Position numbers and translations under genes: made by a program
Source: Comamonadaceae bacterium
GTDB lineage: Bacteria > Pseudomonadota > Gammaproteobacteria > Burkholderiales > Burkholderiaceae_C
NCBI GenBank assembly: GCA_947445115.1
Contig: CANFCG010000011.1
Span: 1 to 64,000, forward strand
Direction: 5' to 3'
Length of the DNA stretch: 64,000 bases
Shown here: piece by piece, positions 36,976 to 39,974 of the stretch
How positions within the stretch are numbered: position 1 is the stretch's first letter
How the letters are laid out: each line of letters starts with the position of its first letter
Notes under the pieces: generated by a model
The model's input: the letters and a program-made list of their open reading frames with translations, nothing else
Database searches by the model: none
What the model was told of the DNA's origin: nothing

Positions 36976-38085
36976 TTAACCTCTTCTCGCCACCACCGCA
37001 TCCGACAAAATTTGTAGCGCAGCTACGCTGTCATCCCAGCCCAAGCACGCATCGGTGATGCTTTGTCCATATGCCAACTTGGACACACTATCTTTGCCTG
37101 GCGTGAACTTTTGAGCGCCTGCGACCAAGTGGCTCTCAATCATCAAACCGAACACCTGCTTGGAGCCACTGGCAACTTGCGCCGCGATGTCGCGCGTCAC
37201 GTCTAACTGCTTTTCGTGCTGCTTAGAGCTGTTGGCGTGGCTGCAATCGACCATCAGGGTTTGCGGCAGTTTGGCTTTGGCTAAGTCGCTGCAAGCCTCG
37301 TCCACACTGGCTTTGTCGTAGTTGGGCGCTTTACCGCCGCGCAAAATCACATGGCAATCGGGGTTGCCATTGGTTTGCACAATCGCGACTTGACCATTTT
37401 TGTGAATCGACAAAAAGTGATGTCCGCCTGCCGCAGCTTGAATCGCATCGGTCGCAATTTTGATATTGCCATCGGTGCCATTTTTAAAACCAATCGGCGC
37501 GGAGATACCGCTAGCCAATTCGCGATGCACTTGCGACTCCGTCGTGCGCGCGCCAATCGCGCCCCAGCTAATGAGGTCGCCAATGTATTGCGGCGAAATC
37601 ACGTCCAAAAATTCGCTGCCTGCGGGCATGCCGAGGCGATTGATTTCGATCAGCAATTGGCGTGCGATACGCAGGCCTTCGTCGATGCGGCAGGATTCAT
37701 CTAAGTACGGGTCGTTAATGAGCCCCTTCCAGCCCACCGTGGTGCGTGGCTTCTCAAAGTACACACGCATCACAACCTCTAACGTGCCTTTGAACTGCTC
37801 GCGTACCGCCATCAACTGCTTGGCGTAATCGACGGCAGCAGCTGGATCGTGAATCGAGCACGGGCCCATGACGACCAGCAAGCGATCGTCCTTGCCTTGC
37901 ATGATGTTGCGAATGTTTTGGCGCGTGTCAGCAATGAGGCCTTCAACGGGCGTACCGCCAATAGGGAAGAAGCGAATCAAATGTTCAGGAGGTGGTAACA
38001 CGGTGATGTCCTTAATGCGGGTGTCGTCGGTTTGGCTGGTGCGGTCTGGCTGGGGACGATCCGTTAGATAAGCTGTCGTGGTCAT
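36976..38085 (-). CDS. aroG: 3-deoxy-7-phosphoheptulonate (DAHP) synthase, class I
   Basis: DAHP synthase condenses phosphoenolpyruvate and erythrose 4-phosphate, the first step of aromatic amino acid synthesis. The 369-residue enzyme is of the AroF/G/H type: VMGPCSIHDP with the metal cysteine near residue 95, EKPRTTVGWKGLINDP near 135, GSEFLD near 180, GFKNGTDG near 223 and VDCSHANSSK near 297. AGGAG precedes the ATG. Upstream on the same strand lies a Phe/Tyr-rich leader peptide and a terminator, so expression should fall when charged Phe-tRNA and Tyr-tRNA are plentiful. Which amino acid inhibits the enzyme itself is not clear. Confidence 0.95.
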   Translation of the reverse strand: MTTTAYLTDRPQPDRTSQTDDTRIKDITVLPPPEHLIRFFPIGGTPVEGLIADTRQNIRNIMQGKDDRLLVVMGPCSIHDPAAAVDYAKQLMAVREQFKGTLEVVMRVYFEKPRTTVGWKGLINDPYLDESCRIDEGLRIARQLLIEINRLGMPAGSEFLDVISPQYIGDLISWGAIGARTTESQVHRELASGISAPIGFKNGTDGNIKIATDAIQAAAGGHHFLSIHKNGQVAIVQTNGNPDCHVILRGGKAPNYDKASVDEACSDLAKAKLPQTLMVDCSHANSSKQHEKQLDVTRDIAAQVASGSKQVFGLMIESHLVAGAQKFTPGKDSVSKLAYGQSITDACLGWDDSVAALQILSDAVVARRG

Positions 38086-38120: not shown

Positions 38121-38150
38121 ATAAAAAAACCGCCTTGGTTAGGGGCGGTT
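38121..38150 (-). terminator. attenuator terminator upstream of aroG
   Basis: On the minus strand AACCGCC and GGCGGTT form a 7-bp GC-rich stem around a 9-nt loop, followed directly by seven T residues. It lies 35 nt before aroG and 27 nt after the leader-peptide stop. The 5' arm (ACCGCC) can instead pair with GGCGGT at 38196-38201, inside the leader-peptide gene. This would be the antiterminator. Confidence 0.85.
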
Positions 38151-38177
38151 CGTTTGGGGTTTGCTAGTTTGATTCGA

Positions 38178-38252
38178 CTACGCAAAAACCTCTCGACCGC
38201 CGTGGCGTGAGAAGAAGAACGTAAAGTAAAAGTAGCTGGTGAATTGATTCAT
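38178..38252 (-). CDS. aroG leader peptide (24 aa, Phe/Tyr attenuator)
   Basis: The frame starts ATG, ends TAG and has 24 residues. Residues 4-14 read F-T-S-Y-F-Y-F-T-F-F-F, giving six Phe and two Tyr codons in eleven; a seventh Phe is residue 23. Codons 18-19 (GGC GGT) are the antiterminator strand. If ribosomes stall at Phe or Tyr codons, this strand is free to pair with the terminator arm. There is no Shine-Dalgarno, but TATTTA (38259-38264) lies 6 nt before the ATG, so a leaderless message is possible. The logic resembles pheL of enterobacteria. Confidence 0.85.
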   Translation of the reverse strand: MNQFTSYFYFTFFFSRHGGREVFA

Positions 38253-38282
38253 GAGAATTAAATAGCGAAGCCCGAATGTACA

Positions 38283-39974
38283 CTAGTTTTTTGTACCAAT
38301 TAGTACCTCCCGTTCCACCAGTAAATGCGCCAAGGCTTTGGCGTCCGTGATGCTGCCCCACGTGACTTCGCCTGGGCTTTGCCTGCCACGCAACACCAGC
38401 CTTGTGGCGATGATGCTGTAGCTCCTCGCATTCTCGGCAGGCTTGGGGATGCCGAGCGGCCTAATGATGACCGCAAAGGGGGCTTGTTGCAAAAGGCTTG
38501 TCGCAGCGATACCTTCGGAGACCGCATAGGGCACAGGCTGCACACACGGCACCGTCGGCAAAGCAAACTGAAAACGCTCAAACTGCGCATTAAAGTTTTG
38601 CGGCACCATCATTTTTTGTCCCGCCACCACGTGCGTCACTCGCGCATCGAAGCGCCCTAAATCACGATCAAAGGGCACAGCCAATGCGCCTAAAAGCGCC
38701 AGCCAAGCCACGGCGCTCGCGGCTGTTAGCATCACACGGAAACGAGCACTCAAAAGTCCGATGCCGCAGCTAAGCAGCAGCACGCCCACTGCTACAAAGT
38801 AGAGCGGCGAGTAACCCAGCCCGACTGGAAAAACGCTATCCAAACTGTGCGCTGCCCAGCCCAAGGCGGCGGTCGCAAACGCAATCAACCACAACGTGAC
38901 CACCCACCAAACACGATGAATTCGGCCTGCATACATCGCGAGCAACACCGCGACAGCCGGCATGGCAGGAATAATGTACCTGCCTGAGCGCTGGCTTGGC
39001 AGCGTGAACACCAGCATCCAACACAGCAGCCAAAGCCAAAGCATTTTTTCGCTAGCAGATATCTGAGAAGCCTTATCACGCATGGCTTGCAAGGCAGCGA
39101 TCAGTAAACCCATCACGAGCGGAAAGAGCAGTCCTGCGTTGACGAGCAACGAGAGCCAAAAGATGAGGATGCTGTCGGAGCGAGCGCCTTCAAATTTACT
39201 GGAAAAATTCTCGCCCACGATGAACTCGCGCCACACGGCGGCGGGATCTGGGTCTACGGCGAGCCACAACGCAAAGCCTGCAAGACCAATAACAACGGCA
39301 ACGGCTGCAGGCAATAAGGCAGCGGGCAAGCTCAGGCCAAACGGGAAGGAGTCATCTTCTTTTTGAGTGATCCACAGTGACAGGAAAAGCCACAGCCCTA
39401 CGGGGGCAGCCAATACAAAAGATTTTGACAGCAGGGCAGGAGTAATCAGCAAACCCAATACTGCTGCAAGCCTTATGGGGTAAGCCTTCCAGCTCGACTG
39501 CCTTGCAATAACGAGGGCGCAAGCGCCAAATAAAAATAAGCTCTCGATTGACGAGCTGAGCACAGGGCGACCGTAGCGATAGGTTACAAAGAAACCGAGA
39601 TAAAGCGCAGCGGCTAGCCAATTAAATGCGGATCTGACCCTCATTAAATAGCCCGCTAGCCAGCCAACCAATCCTGCCGTGAGCAACGTCTCTAAAACAT
39701 ACGGCAATCGAAGTGTGAATAAGTCCCAGCTCCAGCGGCCTGCCGCCATCACCTGCCAAAACAAAAGCGGCGGTTTGGTGTTGCGCATCTCAGCGCCTGC
39801 GGGTGTCTGCAAATCAGAGACAAGTGGTAACCAGTGCCCGCTCTCATTCGTCAATCTTGCAATGTGCAGATAGACCATTTCATCGCCATTAGTGGGCGCA
39901 TAAAAACTACCCAGATTGAGCAGATACGCGGCAGCTAGCAAAAGCGCCGCGCCAACTGCCCACAGCGCCTTCAC
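38283..39974 (-). CDS. GT39/ArnT-like membrane glycosyltransferase
   Basis: The 563-residue protein has roughly 12 membrane segments and a periplasmic C-terminal part. The first loop has the acidic pair in APTNGDEMVYLHIAR, near residue 31, typical of PMT/ArnT enzymes that use lipid-linked sugars. KPPLLFWQVMAAGR (near 67) and RSGRYIIPAMPAVAVL (near 316) are also family-like. It probably moves a sugar onto lipid A, a glycan or a protein in the periplasm. It is the last gene of a five-gene operon joined by 4-bp overlaps. Confidence 0.85.
   Translation of the reverse strand: MKALWAVGAALLLAAAYLLNLGSFYAPTNGDEMVYLHIARLTNESGHWLPLVSDLQTPAGAEMRNTKPPLLFWQVMAAGRWSWDLFTLRLPYVLETLLTAGLVGWLAGYLMRVRSAFNWLAAALYLGFFVTYRYGRPVLSSSIESLFLFGACALVIARQSSWKAYPIRLAAVLGLLITPALLSKSFVLAAPVGLWLFLSLWITQKEDDSFPFGLSLPAALLPAAVAVVIGLAGFALWLAVDPDPAAVWREFIVGENFSSKFEGARSDSILIFWLSLLVNAGLLFPLVMGLLIAALQAMRDKASQISASEKMLWLWLLCWMLVFTLPSQRSGRYIIPAMPAVAVLLAMYAGRIHRVWWVVTLWLIAFATAALGWAAHSLDSVFPVGLGYSPLYFVAVGVLLLSCGIGLLSARFRVMLTAASAVAWLALLGALAVPFDRDLGRFDARVTHVVAGQKMMVPQNFNAQFERFQFALPTVPCVQPVPYAVSEGIAATSLLQQAPFAVIIRPLGIPKPAENARSYSIIATRLVLRGRQSPGEVTWGSITDAKALAHLLVEREVLIGTKN

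Follow-up and report, generated by a model that had tools for sequence, protein, structure and literature searches.

Enterobacterial pheA and trp leaders combine four RNA segments with codons for the end product and a terminator, whereas entry into aromatic synthesis in E. coli is governed by repressors and enzyme inhibition. The leader described here lies upstream of aroG in a 64,000-nt stretch of Comamonadaceae DNA (the window). It shares the four-segment logic, end-product codons and terminator of pheA and trp, but differs from them in its gene and codon mix, and in standing at pathway entry where they regulate terminal branches.

Attenuators of DAHP synthase have been proposed in several lineages. 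In the available passages of PMC2659441, which describe the attenuation mechanism of the enterobacterial pheA/trp kind, Table 3 lists an aroF attenuator sensing Tyr-tRNA in a Shewanella gene, derived from 1980 work in E. coli; the entry resembles our locus as a proposed case of aromatic-tRNA attenuation of DAHP synthase in proteobacteria, and differs (by description) in concerning a gammaproteobacterial aroF. A candidate Phe-Tyr-Phe attenuator of the C. glutamicum DAHP synthase gene aroF (PMC4046766) likewise places a leader peptide with Phe and Tyr codons before the gene, but it belongs to a different phylum and, again compared by description, the available part of that paper mentions no Trp codon and no GGCGG or GAGAG; work cited there concerns an ilvBNC leader peptide that is made with no ribosome binding site. 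The uORFC-13-1 motif of Acholeplasma aroF, a proposed Phe-sensing upstream ORF followed by a terminator ahead of DAHP synthase, is similar in arrangement, but comes from another lineage and has, in the description available in PMC8632094, a ribosome binding site and at least one Phe codon. The accessible text of an Actinobacteria survey reports no Phe or Tyr element.

For the start of the leader, the nearest parallel is the trpL attenuator of Sinorhizobium (S. meliloti), whose RNA, rnTrpL, is described in the passages available of PMC7298713 and PMC7143759 as having a 5' end that coincides with the ATG of its leader ORF. Its leaderless leader is like that proposed below for relatives of the window; it differs in serving the Trp operon and in having reported trans functions, and the −10-like box of the window's genus lies too far from the ATG for the same layout.

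Searches for an earlier description of the element itself gave little. No Burkholderiales aroG leader appeared among the open-access matches listed (subscription surveys such as Vitreschak 2004, Lopatovskaya 2010 and Panina 2001 could contain one), or in the available portions of PMC2965389 and PMC4833913, and the Bordetella S17 sRNA was set aside as a prior description when a term search gave no aroG and no ‘leader’. Rfam returned a single match in the window, a tRNA at 446-518, with no leader family at threshold, and a single match among 20 other loci, an SRP RNA in L125 away from the leader. Identity with RcsR1, described in the text available as an RNA made from the trpL attenuator position, was rejected at 19.4 bits (E 0.09), below the gathering score of 60. 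Attenuators of DAHP synthase have thus already been proposed elsewhere, and what is new, within a known attenuator class, is a widely conserved element of Burkholderiales aroG.

The aroG leader of the window

Direct reading of the minus strand, together with the ORF list, gives a 24-codon leader ORF, MNQFTSYFYFTFFFSRHGGREVFA and a stop codon, at 38252-38178, with Phe at residues 4, 8, 10, 12, 13 and 14, and also 23, and Tyr at residues 7 and 9. The stop codon is separated by 27 nt from AACCGCC (38150-38144), the first arm of a terminator whose second arm is GGCGGTT (38134-38128), with seven Ts at 38129-38123; GGCGGT within the ORF (38201-38196) is complementary to ACCGCC (38149-38144) of the first arm. 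A Shine-Dalgarno-like AGGAG lies between the T-run and aroG, whose ATG is at 38085. These parts and their complementarity are observed directly, as is their conservation among relatives. The features, all on the minus strand, are as follows.

38275-38280, minus strand: likely −10 box of the leader promoter (TACATT), matching by sequence the −10-like box of relatives
38259-38264, minus strand: alternative −10-like TATTTA, weak, present in 2 of 5 congeners (L001, L004)
38178-38252, minus strand: leader peptide ORF, MNQFTSYFYFTFFFSRHGGREVFA plus stop, 24 codons, from reading, conservation and ribosome-placed folding
38209-38214, minus strand: segment 1 (CUUCUC), overlapping Phe codons 13-14, from its pairing with segment 2 in folds and alignment
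38189-38201, minus strand: segment 2 (GGCGGUCGAGAGG), in which GAGAGG pairs with segment 1 and GGCGGU with segment 3
38144-38150, minus strand: segment 3 (AACCGCC), common to antiterminator and terminator, its core co-changing in L222 and L226
38123-38134, minus strand: segment 4 (GGCGGTT) and T-run, intrinsic terminator, from reading, folding and 96.0% of cells paired
36976-38085, minus strand: aroG, type I DAHP synthase (TIGR00034, 520.5 bits), the putatively regulated gene

An initial sequence-only reading had described a 24-codon minus-strand frame with six Phe and two Tyr codons among residues 4-14, ending 27 nt ahead of a 7-bp hairpin with seven Ts, and had noted that codons 18-19 (GGCGGT) are complementary to the 5' arm of the terminator (ACCGCC); our own reading of the sequence agrees on each of these points. 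The 35 nt it gave between hairpin and aroG should be 37 nt, counted from the last T of the terminator to the ATG. The hairpin is absent from the output of a simple terminator scan because its loop is 9 nt and the scan permits 3-8; a folding calculation does form it.

The aroG product scores 520.5 bits against TIGR00034; the other PF00793 match in the genome is KdsA, and PF01474 has no match there. AroG is therefore the sole DAHP synthase found in the genome, the assembly being 97.2% complete, so that an unassembled copy is possible. Upstream lies a glycosyltransferase gene weakly like ArnT, which ends at 38283, 30 nt ahead of the leader. Downstream, a LipP1-like lipase/esterase gene (36943-35993, minus strand) begins 32 nt past aroG, is read the same way and may share its transcript.

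The same genome holds a second leader of like design outside the window (L112, G000:C1:119764-119909, minus strand), ahead of a gene named by eye as leuA-like. Its peptide has five consecutive Leu codons, CAACGGG is complementary to CCCGTTG of its terminator, and TATATT lies 7 nt before its ATG. A third match in this genome (L113, 22 bits, E 0.56) was treated as chance.

Accidental occurrence was gauged with a detector that takes an ATG-initiated ORF of 14-40 amino acids, with at least six F, Y or W within 11 residues, followed by a hairpin and T-run. It passes 94 of 109 real aroG 5' regions. Of dinucleotide-preserving shuffles it passes 0 of 1000 for the window region at threshold 6, again 0 of 1000 in a second run at threshold 8, and 0 of 1090 for all regions.

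Conservation upstream of aroG

Leader and terminator are kept in all 36 sampled genomes of the window's family (L001-L030 and L221-L226), and at 104 of 110 aroG loci. The 110 comprise 30 from the family sample (L001-L030) and 80 others, mostly from Comamonadaceae and other Burkholderiales, and include at least two pairs from the same genome (L012/L055 and L025/L085). Leader-bearing laboratory strains among them are Acidovorax delafieldii DSM 64 (L031) and Comamonas testosteroni (L073). The full element is missing at six loci (L065, L081, L104, L105, L106 and L108), leaving 104 for the counts below: L065 is cut by a contig end, L081 has a leader without a terminator through an apparent deletion in a MAG, and the leader is absent from three Polynucleobacter loci (L104, L105, L108) and one of Cupriavidus (L106). 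Polynucleobacter is itself split, L091 and L095 having the leader, a pattern that may reflect recent loss. As a control within genomes, the same detector was applied to second aroG copies, of which 15, from 14 genomes, were examined out of 20 listed for the family; 15 of 15 had neither a terminator nor an aromatic ORF.

A covariance model of the element (R1) matched in 75 of 300 genomes of the order, 74 of these 75 matches lying ahead of an aroG homologue and being spread over 14 families; the remaining match (L186) is a false positive, with no aroG found within 1.5 kb. Among 44 leaders, a strict terminator finder missed three (L149, L179 and L187), and the ORF finder missed those of L183 and L185, which were read by eye. 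These last two, from family f44, are weak: both have the RNA segments, but the aromatic codons number just one (Phe) in L183 and three in L185, and they look like decaying or re-specified attenuators. Outside the window's family, 24 genomes of the order were sampled, of which 20 have aroG and seven of these an R1 match; in all 13 with aroG and no R1 match, inspection found no leader upstream of the best aroG copy. The leader is patchy at order level, given these 13 genomes, the three Polynucleobacter loci and the one from Cupriavidus.

Beyond the order, a broader model (R2), built on 42 selected matches, hit 3 of 271 genomes of the class, with aroG downstream in two; the third (L205), in whose stretch no aroG was found, was not counted. 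The leader also precedes aroG in a record titled Solimonas (L098), which we take to lie outside the order Burkholderiales, as it does in the two R2-matched genomes with aroG, which belong to family f63 (L203, L204); in these lineages it was perhaps acquired by transfer together with aroG.

The sequence-only reading had proposed aligning Burkholderiales aroG upstream regions. Such alignments show the Phe/Tyr codon runs and the hairpin to be conserved, with second copies lacking them. Orthologues without codon run and hairpin, which it had listed as counting against attenuation, are found in none of the 36 family genomes; some orthologues without a leader do appear further out.

RNA pairing, control codons and the leader start

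Pairing was assessed in an alignment (A1) of 76 of the 104 loci, less than 80% identical to each other, whose conserved columns are the −10-like box, the start codon, the aromatic codons and segments 1-4. The terminator helix is paired in 96.0% of cells across the 76 sequences. The antiterminator helix formed by segments 2 and 3 (2:3) is paired in 80.5%, a value reached by 9 of 500 shuffles. The helix of segments 1 and 2 (UUCUC:GAGAG) is paired in 93.4%, with two-sided changes at three of five pairs, matched by 0 of 500 shuffles (which ignore relatedness); with the partner slid by +2 columns, 90.5% of cells are paired and covariation is 0.115, against 0.107, with fewer two-sided changes. An apparently covarying 1:2 hairpin that overlaps the predicted control codons is an addition to the earlier description of the locus.

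The core itself, GGCGG/CCGCC, is near-constant in A1, which says little, because it is nearly invariant partly through the pattern used for selection. Six loci of the family that had not been selected on the core were therefore read by eye. The compensatory changes that the sequence-only reading had suggested looking for in GGCGGT/ACCGCC are present in two of these relatives, in which GGCGG becomes AGCGG and CCGCC becomes CCGCU: L222 reads AGCGG/CCGCU/AGCGG, and L226 has AGCGG/CCGCU in segments 2/3 with GGCGG in segment 4. In L221, CCGTC faces GGCGG and pairing is held only through a G-U pair. The pair flanking the 2:3 core changes from C-G to U-A between families (Fisher p 7e-10, uncorrected for relatedness; both segments obtained from 167 of 178 leaders). 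Among tree-independent contrasts 2 of 9 are fully concordant, so that tree-corrected compensatory support for this pair appears weak. The segment 2 motif lies outside the usual frame of the leader in 12 of 89 motif-bearing loci, and its conservation is therefore probably at the level of RNA rather than of a peptide tail.

The codons of the run point to the amino acids that may be sensed. Over the 104 loci, a leader has on average 4.5 Phe, 1.6 Tyr and 0.9 Trp codons. A Trp codon is present in 92 of 99 relatives, against one of five in the window's genus (L004 alone keeps it, L001-L003 and L005 being without), and the ancestral sensor therefore probably read all three aromatic amino acids. In the 76-sequence alignment, aromatic positions hold Phe, Tyr or Trp, with the third base switching between T and C where this is allowed, as at one Tyr position with TAC in 40 sequences and TAT in 15. 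Although these bacteria are mostly G+C-rich, TTT fills two Phe positions (A1 columns 59-61 and 68-70) in nearly every sequence (73 of 75 and 70 of 74), perhaps because this codon is read slowly or because the RNA is constrained there. The last Phe position, TTC in 63 of 67, overlaps segment 1 and contributes its C to the pairing with segment 2. In 79 of 102 loci, 9 or 12 nt separate the last aromatic codon from segment 2.

Adding a ribosome to the folding calculation (footprint assumed from −15 to +11) narrows the choice of control codons in the window. The minimum-energy fold is the antiterminator with the A site on Phe12, Phe13 or Phe14, and the terminator with the ribosome on Phe8, Phe10 or the stop codon, or with none. 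Because a ribosome there flips the predicted fold, Phe12-14 would be the likeliest control codons, Tyr7 and Tyr9 being uncertain. The earlier claim that both Phe and Tyr are sensed is thus better supported for Phe, through codons 12-14 of the model, than for Tyr, and most relatives appear to add Trp.

The same calculations indicate what equilibrium folding leaves to kinetics. At full length, with no ribosome, the terminator is favoured in 104 of 104 leaders, and any fold-switching codon is found in only seven of 104; the switch must therefore rest on co-transcriptional timing. When folds are cut before segment 4, the expected boundary does appear: the 2:3 helix is permitted with the ribosome at 432 of 463 Phe codons, 158 of 164 Tyr codons and 96 of 97 Trp codons, but at just 46 of 219 codons for Gly and 15 of 87 for Glu, the Gly and Glu codons lying mostly at or near segment 2. 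The probability of 2:3 in these cut folds also exceeds 0.5 in 54 of 104 leaders with no ribosome (0.99 in the window) and in 86 of 104 with the ribosome at the stop codon, so that the off state lies beyond thermodynamics alone.

A −10-like box stands 6-9 nt ahead of the leader ATG in 95 of 104 loci, and most relatives share TGCTACATT, which resembles the extended −10 consensus. Transcription from a box so placed would start at or beside the ATG, and a Shine-Dalgarno-like motif precedes the leader ATG in just one of 104 loci, a layout that suggests leaderless leaders in relatives. In the five loci of the window's genus the box is 19-22 nt from the ATG (38280-38275 in the window, at 22 nt), from which a short 5' UTR is predicted, without an obvious ribosome site. 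The sequence-only reading had proposed a leaderless start in the window itself from TATTTA; that motif is indeed at 38264-38259, 6 nt before the ATG, but it occurs in two of five congeners, which makes it a weak promoter candidate, and the leaderless-looking layout belongs to the relatives.

Alternative explanations and the proposed switch

The hairpin could instead terminate the upstream glycosyltransferase gene, with the Phe codons an accident of U-rich sequence, in which UUU codons arise easily; the upstream ORF does end just 30 nt from the leader. The element, however, tracks aroG: a C-terminal pattern of the upstream gene, which we take to be TldD-like, turns up in 45 of 109 loci but was not found in the remaining 64, which include those of the window's genus. 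T/C switching at third bases preserves Phe and Tyr, a promoter-like box separates the upstream gene from the leader, and 0 of 1000 shuffles pass the detector, so that we consider this explanation very improbable. Less probable still is a leucine attenuator, in which the overlapping +2 frame, reading HQLLLLYVLLLT, would sense Leu. That frame is open from a GTG in the window and has at least four Leu per 11 codons in 94 of 104 loci, but these codons are a by-product of UUU-UAC runs shifted by two bases, a stop falls inside the run in 25 of 104 loci, the downstream gene encodes DAHP synthase, and the genome has a separate Leu leader before its leuA-like gene.

The retention of segment 2 as RNA, out of frame, in 12 of 89 motif-bearing loci would also suit a protein or small molecule that binds the leader RNA, the ORF being incidental. 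Yet the start codon and the aromatic codons are among the conserved alignment columns, the latter are conserved as codons, and the spacing from leader start to promoter-like box is near-fixed, all of which leaves very little likelihood for such a ligand. More plausible, if still unlikely, is an attenuator whose main role is to supply a trans-acting product, either the short terminated leader RNA or the peptide, like rnTrpL/peTrpL of Sinorhizobium. The leaderless-looking layout of relatives and the weak, sub-threshold similarity to RcsR1 noted above (19.4 bits) point in this direction, whereas beyond the run the peptide is variable and changes frame, which would not be expected if it had a conserved function.

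We conclude that aroG is very probably controlled by a ribosome-mediated transcription attenuator, since the segments are complementary, and the leader and terminator are conserved before aroG and absent from the second copies examined and from shuffles. What follows, from the place of the promoter to the stalling of the ribosome, the readthrough and the choice of amino acids sensed, is our inferred mechanism. RNA polymerase would start a short way upstream of the leader ORF, and translation of the peptide would begin at once. With charged Phe-tRNA plentiful, the ribosome would clear the aromatic codons and move on to segment 2 as segment 3 emerges, leaving segment 3 free to pair with segment 4, so that the terminator would form and transcription would end before aroG. 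Where charged Phe-tRNA runs short (or, in most relatives, charged tRNA for Phe, Tyr or Trp), the ribosome would stall on the run and cover segment 1, breaking the 1:2 hairpin; segment 2 would then pair with segment 3, no terminator would form, and aroG would be transcribed. Since no other DAHP synthase was found in the genome, the whole aromatic pathway would be gated at its entry by this switch.

A broader reading, to which we give roughly even chances, is that these leaders form a burkholderial RNA family, with a leaderless peptide (about four Phe, one or two Tyr and one Trp) sensing Phe, Tyr and Trp at the entry to the shikimate pathway; in the window's genus, where Trp was lost in four of five loci and the box lies further from the ATG, sensing would have narrowed to Phe and perhaps Tyr.

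For anyone engineering these bacteria to make aromatic compounds, the element would be both a practical regulatory part and a point to watch. Loss of Trp, the shift of the promoter and absence from some Polynucleobacter offer a comparative series for how attenuator sensing changes. In many families of a large order, translation of a short peptide apparently sets the entry enzyme of aromatic synthesis; the second copies examined have no such switch.
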